Origin: Clostridia bacterium | Lineage (GTDB): Bacteria > Bacillota > Clostridia > Christensenellales > Borkfalkiaceae | Direction of reading: 5' to 3' | DNA: 52,086 bases | Assembly: GCA_017467265.1 (NCBI GenBank) | Contig: JAFTSO010000001.1 | Coordinates: 1-52,086 of the forward strand | Shown: positions 33,497 through 49,374 of the stretch, in pieces | Position numbering within the stretch: the stretch's first letter is position 1 | How the letters are laid out: each line of letters begins with the position of its first letter | Position numbers and translations under genes: made by a program | The notes under the pieces: model-generated | What the model was told of the DNA's origin: nothing | Seen by the model: the letters and a program-made list of their open reading frames with translations, nothing else | The model's database searches: none

Positions 33497-35848
33497 CTAC
33501 GCCAACGTCACGCGTAAAACGCATTTCGCCTTGCCGCACAGCGCAGTCTTTGCGATGCGTACCACGCCGTTTTTGATCGGCAAACGAACACCGTCCAACG
33601 TCGCTGCGGTCACGATTGATCCGCTCCCGTCGTATTCGATACGGATACGCGTGTCGCCGTAGCCCACGTTCGCCGCCGTTTTGCCGTAAATTTTGGGCAG
33701 GCAGGGTTTGATCGTGATTTCGTCCAAACCAAAGCGAATACCCAGCATCCACGAATAAATCGCGCGTTCGATCATCGCAACGCTCCCCGTCAAGAACGAA
33801 AAACCCGTTCTGCCGTGGAAGGACGGTACGAGATGGTAGCAATTCGTGATCGCGTACGGAGCGCCGCACAGCGCGTCGGGTGCGTGGTATTCCGCATACA
33901 GCGGCAGGGCAAAATTCAAAACGTCCGAGAACGTATCACTCTCGCCCATCTCCGCCAATGCGCGCAACAGGAAACATTGCGAGCCGTGATTGTATACGCT
34001 CCCGTTTTCGGCAAAGTACGGCTGAAAATCGCCCGTACCCATCTTGCCGATGCCGTGAACCTGCTTAAATCCAAACGGAGTAGAGAACAGCATATACCCG
34101 TTCTTAGTGCGAAGCGTTTTGAGCTGCGCCAGTACGTCCTGTTCCTTGCCTTTGGCTACGCCCGAAATGATTGCATACGCGTTCGTGGGGGCATATACGC
34201 GGCGCTCGCCGTCGGGATCTTTTGTGGAGAAAATCCACTCGCCCTCGTCCGTGAATACGCCGTTGTAAAATCCTTCGTTGTTATAGCTGCACGCGTTGAT
34301 CGTCTTCTTCAGATCGTCTGCAAAGCGGAGATATTTGTCCTCGTGAACGCCGCGTTTTGCGAGGATTTCCGTCAAATATCCAAGGCACATAACGAGCTGA
34401 CAGGACACCATCACCGTTTCGCCCCTGCCCTTGATACCTGCGGCGCTCAAACAGTCCAGCCAGTCGCCGCCTTGCATTTTGACGAGCCCGTGTTCGCCGA
34501 TGTGGTCGGGGTGCATCAGGTATTCCATACCTGAAATCAGGTGTGCCAGACCGCTATCCGTTTTGTCGGGCGTGTCGTAATAGGGGAATTTTTCGTCCAA
34601 GACCGTATCATCGTCGGTGAACGCAAGGTAATCGTACACAAACTCGGTGAAAAAGCAAGCCGAATCGACGAAATGACGTAAATCAAATTTATCGCTGTCG
34701 CCAAAGGGGACTTGGCGCGGATACCAGCCGTCGCTGCGCTGTTTAGAGAAGATATTGGCGATCACGCTGCGACACAACGCGGCGTCGTACGCAAAAAAGC
34801 CCTGAAAGTCGTTCGACGCGTCGCGTACCCCACGCATACCTGTCGGCCAGCCGCGATCGAGTGCGGAAACCCAGTCCAACTCCAACGGCAAAAATCCGTT
34901 CACGAAACGGTTAAAATCTTCGTCTTCCGTTTCAATCGTGCGGCGCGAAAACAACGAAGAATATTTCTCGCGGAGCGCGCAAAGCTCCCGTTCCACCGCG
35001 TCGCCATCAAAATACGTACGGCTGTGCGCGATCGAGTCTGCCACCTCGTCTTCTTTTTCCGTGCAGGCAAAGGCAAGGGTGATCGATTGCGAAGCGCCAC
35101 GTTTAAGGGACAGGGTAGTGAGAGCCGCAAAGCATTGTTCAAAGGCATACAGCACCTGTTCCGTTTCGCCGCTGAACGCATCGGGGATACGGGCAAAATT
35201 GTCCGTTGCTGCAATCAGTCGTTCGCTGCTTAATTCGAACCCGTCAAAGGGGGTATCGGACAAACAGGTGAAATATCTGCGCTCTTCCTTTTTACCGCTC
35301 ACGCTATAACGGGTAGTCTTAAACAGCGGCGTTTTACCGTCTGCGTATTCCGTTCTCGTGTACCACTCGGGCTTGTCCCAAGGTGCCATTAAAAGGGCGT
35401 TGACGTAAGGATAAACGCAGGGCAAGATCTTGATCTGCAATTTTTCATCACTCTCGTTCGTGAACGTAGTTTTCAGCACAAAGCGCATACCTTTTGCGGC
35501 AACGAAAAGCTCCGTGGTCACGGTGAGTGCGCCAAAGTGCAGGACATACGTTGCTTTTTCGGGCGTGAAATCGATTTGTAAGCAATCGGCGCGGAATACG
35601 TCGAAGGAGTGTAAAACCCCCGTACCGTATTCAAAATACACCCTTGCAGGCGATCCGATTTCCCGTTTTTCGCGCTTGAAGAGCGCCTCGCCGACGGGGG
35701 GACGGATTTGAGCCGTTTGCAAGCCGAATTGATCGACCTTTATCAAAATTTCGTCGTTTTTATATATGTACTCATACGAGCCAACCTTGGGCAACTCCGT
35801 AAGGGTATAGCCGCCGAGTGTTTTGTTGAAAAAACCGTAATTGTGCAT
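33497..35848 (-). CDS. GH94-family glycoside phosphorylase
   Basis: A 783-residue cytoplasmic enzyme (no signal peptide) of the cellobiose/chitobiose phosphorylase family, which splits beta-glucosides with phosphate to give a sugar 1-phosphate. The N-terminal beta-sandwich (about 1-290) precedes the alpha/alpha barrel. GVRDASNDFQG (about 340-350) corresponds to the FRDxxQD motif. GDWLDC (about 461-466) is the catalytic GDWND motif with Asn replaced by Leu; Asp465 is the likely general acid. GSVYNHGSQCFLLRAL and SFLTGSVAMIERAI are typical of the C-terminal half. AGGAGG precedes the ATG and a good promoter lies upstream. Exact sugar unknown. The N-for-L change may mark a separate subfamily. Confidence 0.85.
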   Translation of the reverse strand: MHNYGFFNKTLGGYTLTELPKVGSYEYIYKNDEILIKVDQFGLQTAQIRPPVGEALFKREKREIGSPARVYFEYGTGVLHSFDVFRADCLQIDFTPEKATYVLHFGALTVTTELFVAAKGMRFVLKTTFTNESDEKLQIKILPCVYPYVNALLMAPWDKPEWYTRTEYADGKTPLFKTTRYSVSGKKEERRYFTCLSDTPFDGFELSSERLIAATDNFARIPDAFSGETEQVLYAFEQCFAALTTLSLKRGASQSITLAFACTEKEDEVADSIAHSRTYFDGDAVERELCALREKYSSLFSRRTIETEDEDFNRFVNGFLPLELDWVSALDRGWPTGMRGVRDASNDFQGFFAYDAALCRSVIANIFSKQRSDGWYPRQVPFGDSDKFDLRHFVDSACFFTEFVYDYLAFTDDDTVLDEKFPYYDTPDKTDSGLAHLISGMEYLMHPDHIGEHGLVKMQGGDWLDCLSAAGIKGRGETVMVSCQLVMCLGYLTEILAKRGVHEDKYLRFADDLKKTINACSYNNEGFYNGVFTDEGEWIFSTKDPDGERRVYAPTNAYAIISGVAKGKEQDVLAQLKTLRTKNGYMLFSTPFGFKQVHGIGKMGTGDFQPYFAENGSVYNHGSQCFLLRALAEMGESDTFSDVLNFALPLYAEYHAPDALCGAPYAITNCYHLVPSFHGRTGFSFLTGSVAMIERAIYSWMLGIRFGLDEITIKPCLPKIYGKTAANVGYGDTRIRIEYDGSGSIVTAATLDGVRLPIKNGVVRIAKTALCGKAKCVLRVTLA

Positions 35849-35994: not shown

Positions 35995-36023
35995 TTGACA
36001 GTATAGGAAAAATGTGATAAAAT
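35995..36023 (+). promoter_or_regulatory. Sigma-A promoter of the SPFH cluster
   Basis: Perfect TTGACA and TAAAAT are separated by 17 bp; the leader is about 70 nt. Confidence 0.82.
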
Positions 36024-36100: not shown

Positions 36101-37243
36101 ATGTCCCTTTTACAACTCATAGAACAAGAAATGAAGAACGATCAGTTGGTCGTACGCAGTCATATTGAAGATTTCAATGCAAAATCACAGCTAATTGTCT
36201 ATGAATCGCAAGAGGCGATTTTCTATAAAAACGGGCAGGCGCTCGATTTATTCGGGCCGGGGCGTCACACTCTTTCGTCCGAGAACGTGCCCGTGCTCAA
36301 ACGGTTTTTCAGCCATTTGTTCGGCGGCAAAACGCCGCTCCCTTGTGACGTGTATTTCGTCAACAAAGTCAACGTTTTGGATATTATCTGGGGTACGGAT
36401 TCACCTGTGCAGCTGGAAGACCCGAAATACCCGATGCTGGTCAGCGTGCGCGCCAACGGGCAGACGGGGGTACGCGTAAAAGATTCGCGCAGGTTCTTGG
36501 TCAACGTTGTAGGACAGCTTAAAGAATACACGGTGGACGGGGTACGTCGCGCGATCAAAGGTATGATGATGGCAGCGATCAAGGAAAGCATCGCCGTCGC
36601 GATCGTCGAAAAGAAGATTAGCATTTTGGAAGTGGCGACCAAGCTCACCGAGCTCTCCGCAACGATCGGGCAAAAGCTCAACGCGGCGATAGCCGATTTG
36701 GGGATCGAAACGACGCATTTCACGCTGTCTGCGATTTTGCCCAGCGACGGGGATCTCGACGAACTCAAAGCCCTGAAAAAGACGATGATGAACACCGAGG
36801 CGGATATGTACCGTGAACGCAGAGAGAGCGAAACGCGTGCATACGCTCGTGCTACGGAAGGATATACGTATCAGGAAGAACGCCGTTTCGACGTGATGGA
36901 AGGCGCGGCGAAGAACGAAGGCGGCGCAGGCGGCAGCTTTATCAATATGGGCGTTGGCTTGGGTATGGGCGCAGGCGTTGGTAAAGAAATGGGGAATATG
37001 TATGCAGGGATTATGCAACCGAGCGCCCCCGTTCCCACGCCGAACGCAGTCGCTCCGAACGCAAGCGCTCCCAACGCGGAAAAGGTATGCCCCTCGTGCG
37101 GCGCACCCGTGGCGACAGGCGCGAAATTCTGTTCGAACTGTGGGCAGCCGCAGCCGCAGGCAAAATTCTGTCCCGAGTGTGGTACGCGTTGCGAGGCAGG
37201 CAGTAAATTCTGTATGAATTGCGGCACAAAATTGAATGCGTAA
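36101..37243 (+). CDS. SPFH-domain protein with two C-terminal zinc ribbons
   Basis: A 380-residue protein of the virion-core-protein/YdjI-like SPFH group. The SPFH-type region (about 25-225) includes QLIVYESQEAIFYKNGQALDLFGPGRHTL and ANGQTGVRVKDSRRFL. An amphipathic, charged helix follows (about 225-275), then a glycine/methionine-rich stretch (MGVGLGMGAGVGKEMG). A Pro/Ala linker precedes two zinc ribbons with eight cysteines in four CxxC pairs (about 330-374). There is no membrane helix, so it probably scaffolds at the membrane surface. GGAGG precedes the ATG. It heads a run of four same-strand genes. Relatives in Bacillus work in membrane-stress response. Confidence 0.85.
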   Translation: MSLLQLIEQEMKNDQLVVRSHIEDFNAKSQLIVYESQEAIFYKNGQALDLFGPGRHTLSSENVPVLKRFFSHLFGGKTPLPCDVYFVNKVNVLDIIWGTDSPVQLEDPKYPMLVSVRANGQTGVRVKDSRRFLVNVVGQLKEYTVDGVRRAIKGMMMAAIKESIAVAIVEKKISILEVATKLTELSATIGQKLNAAIADLGIETTHFTLSAILPSDGDLDELKALKKTMMNTEADMYRERRESETRAYARATEGYTYQEERRFDVMEGAAKNEGGAGGSFINMGVGLGMGAGVGKEMGNMYAGIMQPSAPVPTPNAVAPNASAPNAEKVCPSCGAPVATGAKFCSNCGQPQPQAKFCPECGTRCEAGSKFCMNCGTKLNA

Positions 37244-37263
37244 ACGGGAGAGGAGAAAGGACT

Positions 37264-37959
37264 ATGAAGAAAATCAATCGGTATTTGGTATTGATAGCGA
37301 TCGTACTCGTGTGTGCAGTGGCGAACGTGATTTTGTTTTTGACCGTACCCGATGGACGTACGGACACGGGCGTATTTTGGTTGGTCTGGTCTTTTATGAC
37401 TCCCGTTGCGCTGTTGGCAGCGATCGCGTTGCACCTTTGGGGCACGCGCAAGAGCGCAGGCGATCTGGTGAGTATGACGGTCGTCTATTACCTGTGCGCG
37501 ATTTTTACGGCGGCGTATTTGGCGGCAGGGCTGGTGTTTGTGTACCTGCCTTGGAAAAAGATGTTGCTGCCGCTCATTATAGAGCTGTTGATCACGACGG
37601 CGTATATCGTATCCGCGATGTTTTTCCTTCGCGGAGCGGAGTATATCCGTGCCAGAGAAACGCACACGCGTGAAAAAGTGATGTATATCCGCTTTTTGAA
37701 AGCGGACGTGGACGATTGTATCGCGAAAGCGAACAGCGAAGAATTGAGAGCAAAATTGACAAAACTCGCCGATGACGTGCGTTTTAGCGATCCGATGAGC
37801 CACGCGTCCTTGGCAGGGATCGAGGCAGAGCTGTCGGCGACGGTGGCAGAGATCGCGGACAAAGTGGGCGGCGAGCACGAGAGCGAGGCGTTCGCACTCG
37901 TTGAAAAGGCGCAAAAGGCGTTGGAGCGCAGAAACAGCCGCTGTTTGATGCTGAAATGA
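37264..37959 (+). CDS. Four-TM protein with cytoplasmic helical tail
   Basis: A 231-residue protein with four hydrophobic segments (about 5-27, 41-60, 69-95, 99-123) and a charged C-terminal half (about 125-231) predicted helical and partly coiled coil. No family is recognised. The ATG at AGGAGAAAGGACT is preferred over an upstream in-frame start that overlaps the SPFH gene. Its end overlaps the next gene by 4 bp (ATGA), so it belongs to the SPFH/YidD-like operon. Confidence 0.8.
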   Translation: MKKINRYLVLIAIVLVCAVANVILFLTVPDGRTDTGVFWLVWSFMTPVALLAAIALHLWGTRKSAGDLVSMTVVYYLCAIFTAAYLAAGLVFVYLPWKKMLLPLIIELLITTAYIVSAMFFLRGAEYIRARETHTREKVMYIRFLKADVDDCIAKANSEELRAKLTKLADDVRFSDPMSHASLAGIEAELSATVAEIADKVGGEHESEAFALVEKAQKALERRNSRCLMLK

Positions 37960-38330
37960 AAGGGCAAATCCGAGAGATCCGTATCGTAGATCTATGGACG
38001 TATTTATTTATTCCTTTACTCGCGCTCATCGCGATATGGGTGGGGGGTACGCTCCTTGCGATCAAGGTGTTCCCGTTCCCGTCGTGGATATTTTTTGTCG
38101 TGGCAGGTGTGGGATCGTACTTCTTGATCAGGCGTGCAGCGATCGGCACGGTACTCGCCTACAAGGCGTGGGCACCGATGGAAGTACGGGGCAGATGCCG
38201 TTTTGAGCCGACGTGCTCGACGTATATGATTTTGGCAATTAAAAAATTCGGTTTGGTGTACGGAATTATCAAAGGTATTAAGCGGATTAAGCGGTGTAAA
38301 CCGCCAAACGGTGGGGTCGATTATCCTTAA
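37956..38330 (+). CDS. YidD-like domain with N-terminal membrane anchor
   Basis: A 124-residue protein. About 1-60 contain two membrane helices (about 15-38, 41-57). The rest matches YidD: RGRCRFEPTCSTYMILAIKKFG (Cys81, Cys87) and IKRIKRCKPPNGGVDYP (Cys114). YidD aids membrane protein insertion and is normally a 70-90-residue peripheral protein coded with rpmH, rnpA and yidC. Here it has an added anchor and lies in an SPFH locus. Whether this is the main YidD of the cell or a paralog cannot be told from the window. Confidence 0.82.
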   Translation: MKGQIREIRIVDLWTYLFIPLLALIAIWVGGTLLAIKVFPFPSWIFFVVAGVGSYFLIRRAAIGTVLAYKAWAPMEVRGRCRFEPTCSTYMILAIKKFGLVYGIIKGIKRIKRCKPPNGGVDYP

Positions 38331-38386
38331 TCCGTCGTAAATATTGCATAAAAAATAAAGAAAATAAAACAGGAGGATGGGAAAAA

Positions 38387-40885
38387 ATGAGTAAATTGTC
38401 AGGGCTTTGTCCAAATTGCGGCAGCAAACTCATTTACGAAGACAACGAGCAGACAGTGATGTGCTATGCGTGTGACAGTCTAATCAACGTGGCGGATTTT
38501 GCATCGAACAAATCCACCGTAAGCGCGAGCGTAGGGGGAACGGTTAGCGTAGCGCCGATGATGATGGGTTTCGACAATCCCGATTCGGGTGTGGTATTCA
38601 TCGAAAACTTCTTCGATACGTACGCTTGGGGAGAGTATCAGACGGACGTAGAGATCGATATTCCCGAAATTTCGGGCGTAATCGCAAACAATAAAATGAA
38701 AAACGGAGCGGTGGCGGCGTCCTGGTATCTCGATTATAAAGGACTTGCCGTGCCTGTGCGCAAGAAGATCGAAGGCTTGGGCGTGATCGCGGAGAAGATC
38801 GGCGCGGCGTACAACCCCGACGATTTGACCGAGGCTTACGAATCGTACGATCTGTACGTAAATATCTGCAAAAAATTGACGGAAGAGAAAGAAAACATCT
38901 TCAAACATCTCGATACGGCGATTAAGTATGCGGAAAAATTAAAGCTGGAAAAGGCGAAACTCACCGAGATCAAGGCGGATATCGAAGAATTGAAAGCGCT
39001 GTACGAAAGAGACGTGCAGGTTGTTGCGGACATCAGCGAAATGCCTGCATATTTGGCGGCGCAGGCTGCGCTCAATACCGAAAAGAGCAGAGAGCTGGCG
39101 GCGCAGGGTATTGACGCGAAGAGCGCGTACGCAGAGGCTTTGTCGATGTACAACAGCGAAAATCCCGACAAGAGCGGTGCGCTGGTGCTCTTTGAAAGAG
39201 TGCGCGGCTACGGCGAGAGCGTAAAATATATCAACACCATCAACCAGTATTATAACTTTGAAAAAGAACTCTACCGTTTCTTCGGCAAATATTTCGTGTT
39301 CAAGAACGAATCGTACGTGGCGACGTTGAACGTGAAAGATTTGGGCAAGAAAGGCAAGAAGAACGAAGAGGCGCAGCAGCAACAGCAGGCGGCAGCTCCT
39401 AAGGCTTGGGCACTGTACGAAGTGGTGGCCGGCGAACCTGCGAAGAGCCCTATCGTGACGGGTATCGCGCAGATGATCACCTGCTACGGCGGCAAAATGT
39501 ATTATTTCAAGCTCAATCAGGGCATTTACAGCTACGACGTATATACGAACACCGAAAAGGTGATCGACGCTGGTAAGACGGCGGATTATATCAACTATGA
39601 GTGCGCGCTGGTGAACAACGGCAAAGCGTTTATGGTGAGAAAACGTTCTGTAAAAGAAATGAAGACGGTGGAAGGTAAAGGAAAGAAACCGCAGCTGGTA
39701 GAGACGGCGGATATCGAGCTGAATCCCGAGAGCGTACTCGTTGTCGATATGGTGAACGAAATCGCGAAGAAGACGATCCCCGCAATGCAAAAGGTAGTAT
39801 TCCCTGCGATGACGAAGGAAGGCAGAAAGGTGCTCAATCTCACCAGTCGTCTGTTCTACATCTTCGCGGAAAAATCGATCCCCGTACAGGCAAAGGGCTG
39901 CGGCTCGAAGAAAAAAGAACCCGTGGTAGAGATCAAGACGAAGTTTATGGTCTGCAACCTTGCAACGGGTGAAACGAAGTCTGTTCTGGACGAAAACTGC
40001 GAAATCTGCACCGTTTACAAAGACAAGATCGTGTATGCGTTGCATAAACCCAACAAATATAACAAGGATATTCTCGTATTCGATATGGCGACGGGCGAAA
40101 GCAAAGTGGTGGAATCGAACGTATATCAATATTTCGACGTCATCGACGGCAAAGTGTATTATCTCGTCGGCAACGACGAATACTGTCCGCTCGTTCGCAA
40201 CAGCTTTGACGGCGACAGCCGCGAAGAAATTATGCAGAACGTCGAAGAGATCATCTGCGACATCGGCGGTTGGCTGTACGTACGTAAGGGCAAGGGCTGG
40301 AATTCGCTCTTGGTCAAGGTGAGCGCAGACGGCAAGAAACGTGTGGTACTCTGCTCGCAGCTCAAAAAGTTCATCGGGTTCTACGGCAATTTGATCTATT
40401 ATATCGATTACAACGACACGCTCCGTTCCGTTCGTATCGACGGCAAGAACAATATCAGCATCGCGAAGAATATCGATAAGGTATATCCGATGGACAAATG
40501 CCTGTACTATACGCGCAACGAAAAAGTGGACGGCGACAATACGGCGCTCTCCATCTACAAGATGGACAAAAACGGTCGCAACGTCCGCAAAGTAGTGTTC
40601 AACGTGGATAAAGTCGGCGCAGACGAACAAACGTCGAAATTGTATTTCAAGAAAGCCGAAACCGCTCGTTTCAAGGTTTACGCGCCTAAGAAGGAAAAAG
40701 AGGCCGTGCTCATCGATTATACTTTGCAGAGATATTACGAAATGGATATGGCTACCGAAGACGTGCAGCTCGTTCTGACGATGGGATTGCCGCACTCCGA
40801 AGAGGTCAAGGCTGGCTGCGGTGGCAAGAAGACCGCGCTGGATAAGATCTATGAAGAAGTGGCTTGGACGCCTACCTACGATTGA
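38387..40885 (+). CDS. Large zinc-ribbon / coiled-coil / DUF5050-like propeller protein
   Basis: An 832-residue soluble protein. A zinc ribbon opens it (CPNCG at about 8, CYACD at about 26). A helical, coiled-coil-like part covers about 130-230, and a Gln/Ala-rich linker lies near 325-335. From about 340 come repeated blades of the type GGKMYYFKLNQGIYSYD, DKIVYALHKP, DGKVYYLVGNDEYCPLVRNSFDG and YGNLIYYIDYNDTLRSVRIDG, as in DUF5050-type propellers. Two GCG(S/G)KK insertions are present. AGGAGG precedes the ATG, 56 bp after the YidD-like gene with no clear promoter or terminator between. Function unknown. Confidence 0.8.
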   Translation: MSKLSGLCPNCGSKLIYEDNEQTVMCYACDSLINVADFASNKSTVSASVGGTVSVAPMMMGFDNPDSGVVFIENFFDTYAWGEYQTDVEIDIPEISGVIANNKMKNGAVAASWYLDYKGLAVPVRKKIEGLGVIAEKIGAAYNPDDLTEAYESYDLYVNICKKLTEEKENIFKHLDTAIKYAEKLKLEKAKLTEIKADIEELKALYERDVQVVADISEMPAYLAAQAALNTEKSRELAAQGIDAKSAYAEALSMYNSENPDKSGALVLFERVRGYGESVKYINTINQYYNFEKELYRFFGKYFVFKNESYVATLNVKDLGKKGKKNEEAQQQQQAAAPKAWALYEVVAGEPAKSPIVTGIAQMITCYGGKMYYFKLNQGIYSYDVYTNTEKVIDAGKTADYINYECALVNNGKAFMVRKRSVKEMKTVEGKGKKPQLVETADIELNPESVLVVDMVNEIAKKTIPAMQKVVFPAMTKEGRKVLNLTSRLFYIFAEKSIPVQAKGCGSKKKEPVVEIKTKFMVCNLATGETKSVLDENCEICTVYKDKIVYALHKPNKYNKDILVFDMATGESKVVESNVYQYFDVIDGKVYYLVGNDEYCPLVRNSFDGDSREEIMQNVEEIICDIGGWLYVRKGKGWNSLLVKVSADGKKRVVLCSQLKKFIGFYGNLIYYIDYNDTLRSVRIDGKNNISIAKNIDKVYPMDKCLYYTRNEKVDGDNTALSIYKMDKNGRNVRKVVFNVDKVGADEQTSKLYFKKAETARFKVYAPKKEKEAVLIDYTLQRYYEMDMATEDVQLVLTMGLPHSEEVKAGCGGKKTALDKIYEEVAWTPTYD

Positions 40886-40899
40886 TCAAAAAACGCATA

Positions 40900-40933
40900 A
40901 AAAGAGAACGTCCCGTTAAGGGGCGTTCTTTTT
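40900..40933. terminator. Terminator of the SPFH cluster (bidirectional)
   Basis: A stem including GAACGTCCC / GGGGCGTTC with flanking A/T runs and loop GTTAA, just after the 832-codon gene. Confidence 0.86.
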
Positions 40934-40981: not shown

Positions 40982-41440
40982 TTATTCCGCCTTTTTCCGC
41001 ATTACGTAATCGCGGTTGATCATACCGTTGCCCAGAGCGATCTCCACCGTTTCGTCGATGACAAAGCCGTTTTTTTGATAGCAGCGCACAGCGCGCTCGT
41101 TGGCTTGGTTCACGTTCAAAAGAATATCTTTTTTGCGGCGGAGCAGTTCGGTGAATACCTGCTGGGAATACCCTTTGCCGCGCGCGGTGGGGAGAAGATA
41201 CAGTTTGTCTAGATACACTTCGTTTTCGCGTTCTTCTATCACCAACACGCCGACAGTATCGACGTGAAAATATTCATACCCCCGTGCACGGTACGCGTTG
41301 AGCGCGGTTTTTGAGAAATACTTATCGAGCAAAAAATCGATCTGTTCGCGTGGCAAGATCTCCCCGTAAACTTCGTGCCAGATGGGGGACATAAAGGCGT
41401 ACAGCCTGTCAAAATCCTGTTCGTCAAACGTTTTTAACAT
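40982..41440 (-). CDS. GNAT-family N-acetyltransferase
   Basis: A 152-residue acetyl-CoA-dependent acyltransferase. Motif A is visible in YLLPTARGKGYSQQVFTEL (the Q/RxxGxG/A loop that holds CoA), and motif B in NERAVRCYQKNGFV. Substrate unknown. GGAG-type site before the ATG and a good promoter. It is monocistronic, between two terminator or promoter signals. Confidence 0.9.
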   Translation of the reverse strand: MLKTFDEQDFDRLYAFMSPIWHEVYGEILPREQIDFLLDKYFSKTALNAYRARGYEYFHVDTVGVLVIEERENEVYLDKLYLLPTARGKGYSQQVFTELLRRKKDILLNVNQANERAVRCYQKNGFVIDETVEIALGNGMINRDYVMRKKAE

Positions 41441-41468
41441 CTCCGTTGCTCCTATTTTTTCTGTTGGT

Positions 41469-41498
41469 ATTATAGCACCAAAACGCCGCCGTTGTCAA
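41469..41498 (-). promoter_or_regulatory. Sigma-A promoter of the GNAT gene
   Basis: On the minus strand perfect TTGACA and TATAAT are separated by 18 bp. Confidence 0.82.
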
Positions 41499-41529
41499 GA
41501 TATGCAGACGATGATTTCGTCGGAAAGTT

Positions 41530-42384
41530 TTACGGTTCTGCGTGCAGTTTTTTGTATTCTGATGGGGACATTCCTACGTGTTTGGAAAAGAGCCGACTAA
41601 AATACAGTGCGTTTTCATAGCCGACTGCGTTGGCGGTCTCCGTCACGTTATAATCTTTCGTTTCGAGCAAAGTTTTGGCGTTCGCCATGCGTAGGGATAG
41701 GATATATTGCATAGGGGTCACTTTTACCACTTGCTTAAAGCGGCGGATAAACCAGCACGGACTCATATGCAAAGACTCTGCGTATTCTTCGATGTTGATA
41801 GGTGTATTGTAGTGCTCATTAAAATAACGCGTAGCGCGTTTGATGTCGTTGAGCGCGTCCGCGCCACCACGCTCGCCTTCCCTTAATGAGCGGTCGGCAA
41901 GGAGAAAAACGTGTTGCAAAAGCATAGTTAACAGCGATTTATAATTTGCGCGGCGCAGTTGCATTTCTTGAATCATCTGCGAGAATAACCATTGATAATC
42001 GGCGGAGATGCCCGAATAAAAAAAGTTTTTATCTGTTGGGAACGCACACGCAGATAGTACTTTATCTACTTCGTTTCCCGTAAAATGAACCCAAAAAACT
42101 TCGCATTGATCCTTTGGATAATAGAAATACGATTGCGGCTCGTAAGGGCGGAATAAAATCATATGTCCTTTTGATACGATTTGTTCGATGCCGTTAAAGA
42201 AAAAACTCGCCTTGCCCTCTGCTATGTACAGCAACTGATAATCCCGTCTGCCCTTTGGACGGTTGGTTTTAATGGTAGGTCCATCGTTTACTCGGTAATA
42301 GCCGCAGCTCGTGACGAGAAAGGGCACAGTGAGGTCTTTGACGACGGAAACAGAGTTGTAAAGATAGGCAACGTTGGTGTACAC
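41530..42384 (-). CDS. AraC-family transcriptional regulator
   Basis: A 284-residue regulator with an N-terminal cupin sensor (about 20-110, RRDYQLLYIAEGKASFFFNG and GHMILFRPYEPQSY) and a C-terminal double helix-turn-helix (about 185-280, ending in ETANAVGYENALYFSRLFSKHVGMSPSEYKKL). The start is GTG with AGGAG 10 bp upstream. It is divergent from the GPH symporter and lacZ and very likely activates them with a sugar ligand. Confidence 0.93.
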   Translation of the reverse strand: MYTNVAYLYNSVSVVKDLTVPFLVTSCGYYRVNDGPTIKTNRPKGRRDYQLLYIAEGKASFFFNGIEQIVSKGHMILFRPYEPQSYFYYPKDQCEVFWVHFTGNEVDKVLSACAFPTDKNFFYSGISADYQWLFSQMIQEMQLRRANYKSLLTMLLQHVFLLADRSLREGERGGADALNDIKRATRYFNEHYNTPINIEEYAESLHMSPCWFIRRFKQVVKVTPMQYILSLRMANAKTLLETKDYNVTETANAVGYENALYFSRLFSKHVGMSPSEYKKLHAEP

Positions 42385-42415
42385 GAAAATTCGCTCCTTT
42401 TATAATCTATATCTT

Positions 42416-42444
42416 ATTATATATGTATTTTACGAAAAAATCAA
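42416..42444 (-). promoter_or_regulatory. Promoter of the AraC gene
   Basis: On the minus strand TTGATT and perfect TATAAT are separated by 17 bp. Confidence 0.75.
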
Positions 42445-42487
42445 GTATTGAGTATCATTTTGTGCATATTTTCATAAATTCTCTTTA

Positions 42488-42516
42488 TTGCTTTTTTGTT
42501 TGTGACGCGCTATAAT
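42488..42516 (+). promoter_or_regulatory. Promoter of the GPH symporter-lacZ operon
   Basis: TTGCTT and perfect TATAAT are separated by 17 bp. The weak -35 fits an activator-dependent promoter next to an AraC gene. Confidence 0.7.
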
Positions 42517-42567
42517 GAAAACAAGAATAAGCGGCGCGCAGCAAAAAAATAAAAAAGAGGGGAAAAG

Positions 42568-46493
<3,926 letters not shown>

Positions 46494-46519
46494 TAGGACA
46501 AAATAACGACGATTTGCGA

Positions 46520-46553
46520 GCGCCCCTTGTAAGAAACAAGGGGCGTTTTTCCT
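46520..46553 (+). terminator. Terminator of the lacZ operon
   Basis: CGCCCCTTGT / ACAAGGGGCG stem with five-base loop and TTTTTT. Confidence 0.9.
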
Positions 46554-46569
46554 TTTCGCGCGCATACGG

Positions 46570-46598
46570 TTGACAAACGGGGCAAAGCATGCTATACT
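46570..46598 (+). promoter_or_regulatory. Sigma-A promoter of the YfhO-like gene
   Basis: Perfect TTGACA and TATACT are separated by 17 bp. Confidence 0.82.
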
Positions 46599-46641
46599 AA
46601 AAAGTGGAAAACGATAACCCCTACGGGGACGGAGTAAAACA

Positions 46642-49374
46642 ATGTCGGTGGAAAGACAGGAAAGCAACGAAAAAAAGAATTTTTTTGAGAAAATAAAGGG
46701 CTGGACGGCAAAGCTGGACGGTATGAACGCGGCGAAGGCTTGGCTGTGGGCGGCGGTGATAGCGGCGGTCAGCCTGCTGTTCGTGTTGTTGCCGTTTGTG
46801 TTCCGCAGCACGTACACCGTTTGGACGGGGATGAGCGGCGACGGTGCGACGCAGTTCATCACGTTCTTTGCGCATATAAAAGAAGTGGGCTGGCTGAAAG
46901 CGATCGGCGATTACGATTTTTCCGTGGGGCTGGGCGCTGACTATCTCACGTCCTTTTCTTTCTATTCGCTCTTCGATCCGTTCAACGTGATTTTGTTCAC
47001 GCTTCCCTTTGGTGCGATGACGAATTACACGATTACGATGGCGCTCAAACAGCTCGCTTGCGCGCTGACGATGTTTGCGTACTTGCGCTACAAAGGGGTG
47101 AAAAATTCCCGTGCGATCATACTAGCGACGGCGTATATGCTGTCGGGGTTCGTGGCGTTCACGTTCGTGCGCCATTACAATTTGGCGGTAGGACCTATCT
47201 ATCTGCCGCTGGCGATTATGGGCATTGACAAACTGTTCAAAAAAGAACGCCCGTACCTGTTCATCACGGCGCTCTTCCTGTGTCTGACGTCTAATTTTTA
47301 CGTATTCTTTTCGTTGAGCGTGTTTGTCGTGGCGTACGCGATTGCGTATTATTTCCACGATTGCGCGGTGAAGGGCGAGGAAAAGAGCGTAAAGGGGTTC
47401 TTTGCAAAGCTCGTGCCTATCGGCGCGTATTATCTGCTTGCCGTCGTGCTCGCAGGCGTGGTGCTGTTGCCGAATTTGTACGGGTATTTGCACGCGGCGC
47501 GGAGCGGCTCGAAGGGACTGGAATTTTTTAATTTCCAGACGTTCTTATCGCAGGGAGCATCGCTGTTCGTGCCGATGACGGGTAAAAATTACAGCGTGGT
47601 GTCTGTCAATTTGGCGAACGCGGTGCTGGTGCTGTACGCGCTGTTCAAAAAGGATAAACGCACGCGCTTGCACGGCATTTTCGTCATCGTACTGACGGTG
47701 GGATACGTGCTGCCCGTGTTCGGCTATGCGATGAATATTTTCAATTACAGCAACAACCGCTGGTCGTACGGGCTGAATTTCTTTGTGTACGTAATGATTG
47801 CGTTGCAATCGATAGATGGTGAAGAGGGGGCGTACGACGACGGCTCGATTAAAAAAATCAACGCCTTTTTCGTGATATACGCGGCGGTGCTGTTGGCGAG
47901 CGTTTTGCCTGCGGTATTGACGGCGGTGGGTTTGCAGGCGTGGTGGACGTACCTGCTGGCGGCGGCGATAGCTGTGGGCGTAGGGTACGGAGCGTATTTC
48001 GTTCTGCGATTGATCAAAAAGAACGGCGTGCCGAAAATTTTCAAGAAAATCTATCAGCCGACGGTGCTGTTTTTGCTCGGCTTTGCGCTGACGATCGGGT
48101 ACTGCTTTGCCTATTACACAATCTATTCGTCCCAGCACGACGGCAAGGAACGCTATGCCGCGCTGTTCTCCAAGGAAGAAGGGTTTATTGCGGAGCAGAG
48201 CAAGGACGAATTTTTCCGCGGCGACGCGATGGCGACGGGGGTATGGTACGATAATTTCGGTACGCGCGGTATGAACAACGGGTACTACGGTACGACGTTG
48301 TACAACACGATCGCGGATAGTGGCGTGTATGCATTTTTGCGTGAAAACGGCGTGTATAACCCCGCGCAAAATTTGGGTATGGGCGGTTTGGACGGGCGGT
48401 ACGCCCTGCAAACGCTGCTCTCCGTAAAATACAGCTACGACGTGCTGACGCAGCCCTACGGATTTAGCAAAGTGGACGGGTACGAGTATCTGTACGAAAA
48501 CGACAATTACCTGCCGTTTGGGTTTATGACGGACAGAGCGTACTCGCGCGAGCAATATTTGGCTTTGCCCGTTTTGGAACGGCAATATATGCTGCTGGAC
48601 GGCGTGGTGCTGGATGGAACGGTGGACGGACAATACACGTCCACGCTGGAAACAATCGCGCTCACGAACGAGAACGGGGCTGCGATCAAGGCCGTGCAAA
48701 AAGAAAAAACGACGGTGATTGTGGATGCTACCCCTCTGCAAGGCAAGGAAGTGTATTTTGCCGTCAAGGGCGTAAAGGAAGTGCCCAAAAATAATACGCT
48801 CATCGAGATTAGCTGCAACGGCGTGCAAAAGGAATACAACTACGTACCCAAGGGCAATTTGATGTACAGCGATCAGCGCGATTTCTATATGAATTTCGGC
48901 GTGGTGGAGAGCGGCACGAAAACGTTGGAATTTTCGATGTGGATCTCCGAAGGCGCGAAACGCGTGGATTTTGACGAAGTATCGTTATACGCCGCGCCCG
49001 TGGCAGATAGGCAGACTTCGCTCAATAGGTTGCAAACGGCGGCGCATTTGGAGAACGTGCAGCTGCAAGACAAGGGGCTGACGGGCACGCTGACGAGCGC
49101 GACGGACGGGTATTTGGTGTTGACGTTGCCGTACTCGGAAGGGTGGACGGCGTACGTGGACGGAGTAGAAACGGAGATTTTGCAGGCGGACACGGCGTTT
49201 ATGGCATTGCGGATCACGGGCAGCGCGAACACGCAGCGCATAGAGCTCCGCTACGAAACGCCCCACCTTGCGGTGGGCAAAGCGACCAGCTTTTTGGGCT
49301 TGGGCGCGCTGGGCTGCGTGATTTTGGGCGACACGACCGTGCGCCTGATTAAGAAGAAAAAGGAAAAACAATAA
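46642..49374 (+). CDS. YfhO-family membrane protein
   Basis: A 910-residue protein of the YfhO/GT-C-like superfamily. About 13 hydrophobic segments fill roughly 35-530. GDGATQFITFFAHIKEVGW and DYDFSVGLGADYL are the first extracellular loop, where acidic residues in such proteins serve catalysis. A large extracytoplasmic beta domain follows (about 535-880, with the family-typical LPYSEGWTAYVDG), then a last TM helix and a basic tail. YfhO relatives in Bacillota are linked to glycosylation of lipoteichoic acid. GGAG-type site. Monocistronic. Confidence 0.88.
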   Translation: MSVERQESNEKKNFFEKIKGWTAKLDGMNAAKAWLWAAVIAAVSLLFVLLPFVFRSTYTVWTGMSGDGATQFITFFAHIKEVGWLKAIGDYDFSVGLGADYLTSFSFYSLFDPFNVILFTLPFGAMTNYTITMALKQLACALTMFAYLRYKGVKNSRAIILATAYMLSGFVAFTFVRHYNLAVGPIYLPLAIMGIDKLFKKERPYLFITALFLCLTSNFYVFFSLSVFVVAYAIAYYFHDCAVKGEEKSVKGFFAKLVPIGAYYLLAVVLAGVVLLPNLYGYLHAARSGSKGLEFFNFQTFLSQGASLFVPMTGKNYSVVSVNLANAVLVLYALFKKDKRTRLHGIFVIVLTVGYVLPVFGYAMNIFNYSNNRWSYGLNFFVYVMIALQSIDGEEGAYDDGSIKKINAFFVIYAAVLLASVLPAVLTAVGLQAWWTYLLAAAIAVGVGYGAYFVLRLIKKNGVPKIFKKIYQPTVLFLLGFALTIGYCFAYYTIYSSQHDGKERYAALFSKEEGFIAEQSKDEFFRGDAMATGVWYDNFGTRGMNNGYYGTTLYNTIADSGVYAFLRENGVYNPAQNLGMGGLDGRYALQTLLSVKYSYDVLTQPYGFSKVDGYEYLYENDNYLPFGFMTDRAYSREQYLALPVLERQYMLLDGVVLDGTVDGQYTSTLETIALTNENGAAIKAVQKEKTTVIVDATPLQGKEVYFAVKGVKEVPKNNTLIEISCNGVQKEYNYVPKGNLMYSDQRDFYMNFGVVESGTKTLEFSMWISEGAKRVDFDEVSLYAAPVADRQTSLNRLQTAAHLENVQLQDKGLTGTLTSATDGYLVLTLPYSEGWTAYVDGVETEILQADTAFMALRITGSANTQRIELRYETPHLAVGKATSFLGLGALGCVILGDTTVRLIKKKKEKQ

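Follow-up and report, generated by a model that had tools for sequence, protein, structure and literature searches.

The known system closest to the locus analyzed here is the pspA-ydjGHI operon of Bacillus subtilis, in which deletion of ydjG or ydjH keeps the SPFH protein YdjI from the membrane and YdjH interacts with YdjI (excerpts of PMC8581546), and in which YdjG bears two zinc ribbons (excerpts of PMC11237479). A second point of reference is YidD, which in Escherichia coli is described as a putative insertion efficiency factor from in vitro transport and cross-linking (review PMC8082313, in excerpt). Our subject is a group of four genes at 36101-40885 of a 52,086-nucleotide stretch of DNA (referred to below as the window), contig JAFTSO010000001.1 of a Clostridia bacterium assembly (GCA_017467265.1, family Borkfalkiaceae) that measures 1.39 Mb, is 79% complete and is labeled G000 here. 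As an earlier note made from the letters of the DNA had claimed, all four open reading frames (ORFs) are present on the + strand; they encode an SPFH protein (36101-37243), a four-transmembrane (4TM) protein (37264-37959), a YidD paralog anchored by transmembrane (TM) segments (37956-38330) and a zinc-ribbon propeller protein that we call P4 (38387-40885), with all TM segments in this work predicted by a simple hydropathy scan. The earlier note had not recognized the combination as described, and in open-license papers (searched partly at the level of title and abstract) we likewise found no description of the cluster, none of YidD together with SPFH and none of 'virion core protein' together with SPFH; searches for other SPFH, TIR and zinc-ribbon combinations returned nothing on the cluster by title or abstract.

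The four-gene cluster is not a product of chance. Scanning named genomes with an alignment of P4, we obtained 13 loci, each of them in a metagenome-assembled genome titled Clostridia, Clostridiales, Oscillospiraceae or Erysipelotrichaceae and, where the titles give a source, from roe deer and sheep gut (four loci are the same records as genomes G002, G072, G030 and G064 of our family survey, and two, L158 and L159, are near-duplicates, 91-98% identical over their main pieces). In all 13, an SPFH gene and a TM-anchored YidD gene lie directly upstream of P4; nine have the complete order SPFH-4TM-YidD-P4, and seven of these nine retain the ATGA overlap of the 4TM and YidD genes. The linkage persists, across genera too, as identity to the window's P4 drops to 27-28%, so the check that the earlier note had proposed, conservation of the neighbors in related genomes, came out in favor of the cluster. 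Of the 101 genomes in the family survey, 71 have SPFH relatives (E up to 1e-10), 10 have 4TM, seven have P4 and 98 have some YidD; SPFH adjoins 4TM in all 10 of the 4TM-positive genomes and is adjacent in six of the seven that have P4. Pairwise distances correlate for all six protein pairs (r 0.65-0.88, with 0 of 2,000 permutations matching the observed value for each pair), which fits joint inheritance of the four genes.

SPFH-4TM is, moreover, a widespread pair. We surveyed 50 4TM loci besides the window, 10 from the family, 20 from the order (where 40 of 297 genomes gave a match and a single genome supplied two of the loci used) and another 20 from the class (31 of 391 genomes matched), mostly the strongest matches, so that weak ones are under-represented. 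In 49 of the 50, SPFH immediately precedes 4TM, with spacers of -58 to 50 bp; the sole exception, L145, has a partial 4TM gene, and in L137 the SPFH gene is split. Adjacent SPFH genes were also found at 17 of 20 short 4TM loci (some of which repeat surveyed places), and in three of the four genomes outside the class among the seven, of 398, that matched 4TM in a search of the phylum. Short homologs (109-143 residues) that cover just the C-terminal half of the protein encoded by 4TM stand directly 3' of SPFH in six of six cases examined (L121, L122 and L124-L127, a count that excludes L123 and weaker matches); because these half-length homologs adjoin SPFH, the C-terminal half is the probable SPFH-binding part. 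SPFH genes without 4TM look like a second, stand-alone group (L011-L030, or 20 of the first 30 family loci, and 22 when L004 and L010, both with YidD, are included). At six of seven stand-alone loci examined, a zinc-ribbon gene and a gene of about 65 residues, the latter presumably DUF1858, are nearby. As a side observation, two SPFH-4TM loci (L087 and L144) carry a gene for a protein of 881-889 residues with a low-complexity partner; the one in L087 matches HerA/DUF87 ATPase, and genes that appear recombinase-like by eye flank that locus.

What accompanies the pair varies within a recognizable slot. A same-strand ORF of at least 180 residues with an N-terminal zinc-ribbon pattern lies no more than 7 kb from 4TM in 44 of the 50 loci, and the pattern occurs in 47 of 153 ORFs near 4TM versus 5 of the 211 others in those stretches (Fisher p 6e-15, with relatedness ignored). 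P4 is mostly replaced at these loci by other zinc-ribbon proteins, of which we scanned 53 of 57 (the rest being an overlapping ORF and three of P4 type). Pfam TIR_2 occurs in 32 of the 53, a wider context that was not visible to the earlier note: the SPFH-4TM pair often neighbors zinc-ribbon TIR proteins. Other domains in these neighbors, some alongside TIR, are TPR, LRR_5, RCC1, Flg_new and DUF6273. A typical TIR neighbor has its zinc ribbon at residues 6-27 and its TIR domain at 151-290, and of the 33 TIR proteins found with a custom profile, 25 have one or more predicted TM segments after the TIR domain and eight have none. In L090, LRR_5 and Flg_new repeats come after the TM segment, an order like that of a Toll receptor with its ends exchanged (checked in L090 only). 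Proteins of zinc ribbon-TIR-TPR layout stand beside SPFH-4TM at L090, L132, L138, L140, L190-L192 and others, and a TM segment is predicted in most of them. By its layout of zinc ribbon, repeats and propeller, P4 fits the same client slot.

To the linkage, domain content and co-divergence, which are directly observed, we add a reading on which our own judgment is evenly divided: that the cassette is a membrane platform, an SPFH protein held by a 4TM anchor, that carries exchangeable zinc-ribbon clients, the window's version lacking TIR and having a propeller client and a YidD of its own. The four genes would then be one inherited cassette. SPFH would form oligomers at the cytoplasmic side of the cell membrane, held there by the C-terminal domain of the 4TM protein, which by analogy with B. 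subtilis would take the anchor role of YdjH. P4 would be a client that uses its N-terminal zinc ribbon to dock on the platform, with repeats and propeller that may offer a sensing or protein-binding surface, extended in some relatives by TM segments and probably outside-facing repeats; the TM-anchored YidD may aid the insertion or assembly of the membrane parts of the SPFH-4TM-P4 complex. Surveillance or signaling at the membrane is the most likely function of the platform, a role that we infer from SPFH-4TM standing beside TIR-bearing zinc-ribbon proteins in related bacteria, and not from the window itself. A broader version is one that we put forward tentatively, at less than even confidence: Clostridia may have a modular surveillance platform of SPFH and a dedicated 4TM anchor with exchangeable zinc-ribbon receptors, many of them transmembrane TIR proteins of inverted-Toll layout, and in the window's branch a propeller would have replaced the TIR domain and a private YidD been added. 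The platform reading gives a testable context to three uncharacterized families (the 4TM anchor, the TM-anchored YidD and the zinc-ribbon propeller), and a link between bacterial SPFH scaffolds and TIR receptor-like proteins would make the organization of membrane surveillance in bacteria directly testable.

Several observations weigh against the platform reading. The distance correlation would also result from plain vertical descent of the four genes. The 4TM gene is absent from four of the 13 P4 loci, one of the seven P4-bearing family genomes (G068, at L085) lacks SPFH on the stretch examined, and no SPFH is seen at three short 4TM loci (L119, L212 and L118, the last being at the same place as L145). 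YidD is labeled in only four of the 50 SPFH-4TM neighborhoods and eight of 14 P4 proteins have no predicted TM segment, so the presence of YidD does not go along with that of a TM client. In six of the 13 strongest family matches, TM-anchored YidD lies away from SPFH (one of the six, in G010, has a weak SPFH-profile match nearby). Of the 101 family genomes, 20 carry zinc-ribbon TIR genes, but only two of these (G013 and G029) have a 4TM match, and on this ground we rejected the proposition that a zinc ribbon implies an SPFH-4TM platform.

The TIR neighbors also bear on a rival that we consider rather unlikely, namely an anti-phage or conflict system in which SPFH-4TM gathers a client that triggers cell arrest on phage attack at the membrane, with the window's P4 as a TIR-less client. 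Such a system would suit the frequency of TIR domains in the zinc-ribbon neighbors, 30 of 33 of which keep a W-x-x-x-E motif at what we take to be the NADase glutamate site, and the patchy distribution of P4 (7 of 101 family genomes). The PADLOC candidate model PDC-S66 matches 13 of the 53 neighbors and kinase models a few; the Thoeris model ThcB4 matches 16 (best E 2e-7, far under its 220-bit cut-off). There are also signs of mobility: of five contigs that were classed as viral and carry SPFH, three combine it with 4TM and a zinc-ribbon gene, and this trio stands directly after genes for the tail sheath, the tail tube and a tail assembly chaperone in one (L241:1151-5986), near a resolvase in another (L236) and beside a helicase in the third (L240), and a 7,372-bp copy containing the module is 99.4% identical between genomes of two different families (L199 and L200), reflecting either recent transfer or assembly contamination. 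However, the window's cassette holds no TIR domain or other recognizable effector; the custom profile found no TIR in the window, the G000 assembly, itself incomplete, yielded no gene of the zinc-ribbon TIR kind, the four proteins gave a single weak PADLOC match (0.01, P4 residues 6-50), no P4 relative was confirmed in the viral-contig scan, and the genes flanking the cassette are those of sugar metabolism and an acetyltransferase.

The third gene is the point at which an insertion role has to be weighed. Its product (124 residues) has two predicted TM segments followed by a YidD domain at residues 60-123 (E=6.7e-18) that exceeds both curated cut-offs (64.7 bits versus 27, and 59.4 versus 40), with C81, C87 and C114, presumably the cysteines of the YidD family, invariant across 14 sequences. 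The earlier note had suggested a membrane protein-insertion assembly, and in its stronger form (a dedicated insertion and quality-control assembly in which YidD would pass clients on to YidC/Sec and SPFH would act as their scaffold) we regard this as unlikely. The constant presence of YidD at the 13 P4 loci and the putative function of E. coli YidD (PMC8082313, in excerpt) argue for it, and a dedicated insertion role for this YidD is possible; its rarity in SPFH-4TM neighborhoods (4 of 50), the want of a YidC, Sec or protease gene in the cassette and the two extra TM segments on which the domain rides argue against it. The platform reading asks of YidD the narrower task of assisting its own complex. 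In G000 the cassette copy is the single YidD found (G002 has two, the second elsewhere), and a standard copy may be missing from the 79% complete assembly. Separately, a second kind of TM-anchored YidD (148-161 residues) occurs at L093-L097 (G048, G059, G087, G026 and G089), with no SPFH on the stretches examined; in L093, L094 and L096 it comes after a conserved gene of 74-78 residues.

The remaining protein assignments of the earlier note hold as well. The product of the first gene (380 residues), which it had called an SPFH protein with two zinc ribbons, is of YdjI type (PF13421), with a Band_7_1 match at E=1.8e-40, a double zinc ribbon at its C terminus (1.2e-9) and no TM segment predicted; compared with known structures, its profile matches mainly through the zinc ribbons, with a weak match to flotillin-1 (0.083). 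The ORF of the second gene as called starts at TTG 37219, and the ATG at 37264, downstream of GAGGAGAAAGG, agrees with the start in relatives, giving a protein of 231 residues. Four hydrophobic segments (approximately 8-26, 37-55, 77-95 and 104-122) precede about 105 presumably cytosolic residues with conserved RFSDPMS and RN motifs. Like the earlier note, we could place this 4TM protein in no known family: Pfam, NCBIfam and PADLOC gave no reliable match (the single Pfam match, to an unrelated family, is at chance level, 0.12), XpaC/TelA kinship found no backing (PF10112 over cut-off in 0 of 61 genomes, with one weak match), and neither the 4TM nor the YidD profile matched known structures convincingly. 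P4 (832 residues) begins with a CxxC...CxxC zinc ribbon (C8, C11, C26 and C29), continues with what are presumably helical repeats and ends in a DUF5050 beta-propeller (E=3.5e-16, 59.7 bits versus a cut-off of 27); among known structures, its family profile matches 3s25, a propeller of seven blades (E=4.5e-5). TM segments lie beyond residue 870 in six of 14 P4 members, the window's P4 being among the eight with none predicted. The P4 of L149/L080 extends to 2019 residues, with PA14 over cut-off and a galactose-binding-like match below it.

The arrangement of these genes suggests that all four are co-transcribed. The 4TM and YidD genes overlap by 4 bp (ATGA), and 56 bp separate the YidD and P4 genes. 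The strong promoter that the earlier note placed before the first gene corresponds to a promoter-like site on the + strand at 35995-36023 (TTGACA-17-TAAAAT, with TG before the -10) that matches 11 of 12 consensus positions; because a scan of 7 kb found about as many promoter-like sites as expected (9 versus 6.3, sd 3.0), only the strength of this site is notable. The terminator claimed after the last gene is likewise present as a predicted intrinsic hairpin on the + strand at 40901-40933, including a T run (-21.5 kcal/mol, z=-6.6, with 0 of 200 shuffles folding equally well). It is absent among the 10 sites of a consensus terminator scan, which missed it probably because the stem includes the T run. 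Upstream of the cassette is a GH94 gene (within 33497-35848), and downstream (40982-49374) are genes for a GNAT acetyltransferase, an AraC regulator, an MFS sugar transporter, a GH2 beta-galactosidase and a YfhO membrane protein.

Compared with known systems, the cassette is most like pspA-ydjGHI, with which it shares a YdjI-family SPFH protein with a C-terminal zinc ribbon, a zinc-ribbon partner and a membrane partner (excerpts of PMC11237479), and by this analogy it might be a divergent Psp-type envelope-stress operon. We disfavor this as very improbable: PspA (PF04012) is over cut-off in none of the 101 family genomes, G000 with its 79% completeness included (G073 and G080 have weak sub-cut-off matches), versus nine of 14 controls, B. 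subtilis among them. In the cassette proteins we found no TPM domain of the YdjH type; they include a 4TM protein of no known family, a propeller client and a YidD. The earlier note's suggestion of a membrane assembly thus stands as to the membrane-associated class, which is the likeliest, and is weakened as to membrane stress of the Psp type. Relation to the flotillin-NfeD pair is not indicated either, none of the four proteins matching NfeD. The cassette YidD resembles other members of PF01809/TIGR00278 in its domain and its three invariant cysteines, and differs in its two N-terminal TM segments, its constant P4 neighbor and its place between 4TM and P4, outside the rpmH-rnpA-yidD-yidC setting. 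P4 shares its C-terminal propeller region with DUF5050 proteins such as 3s25, to which it adds an N-terminal zinc ribbon and repeats, as well as an operon with SPFH. With type III Thoeris, the likeness lies in the client slot of related loci, often filled by TIR proteins with sub-cut-off similarity to ThcB4; the window's client, by contrast, has no TIR domain, and its counterparts at those loci are zinc ribbon-TIR-TPR proteins, often with TM segments, that stand beside SPFH-4TM.

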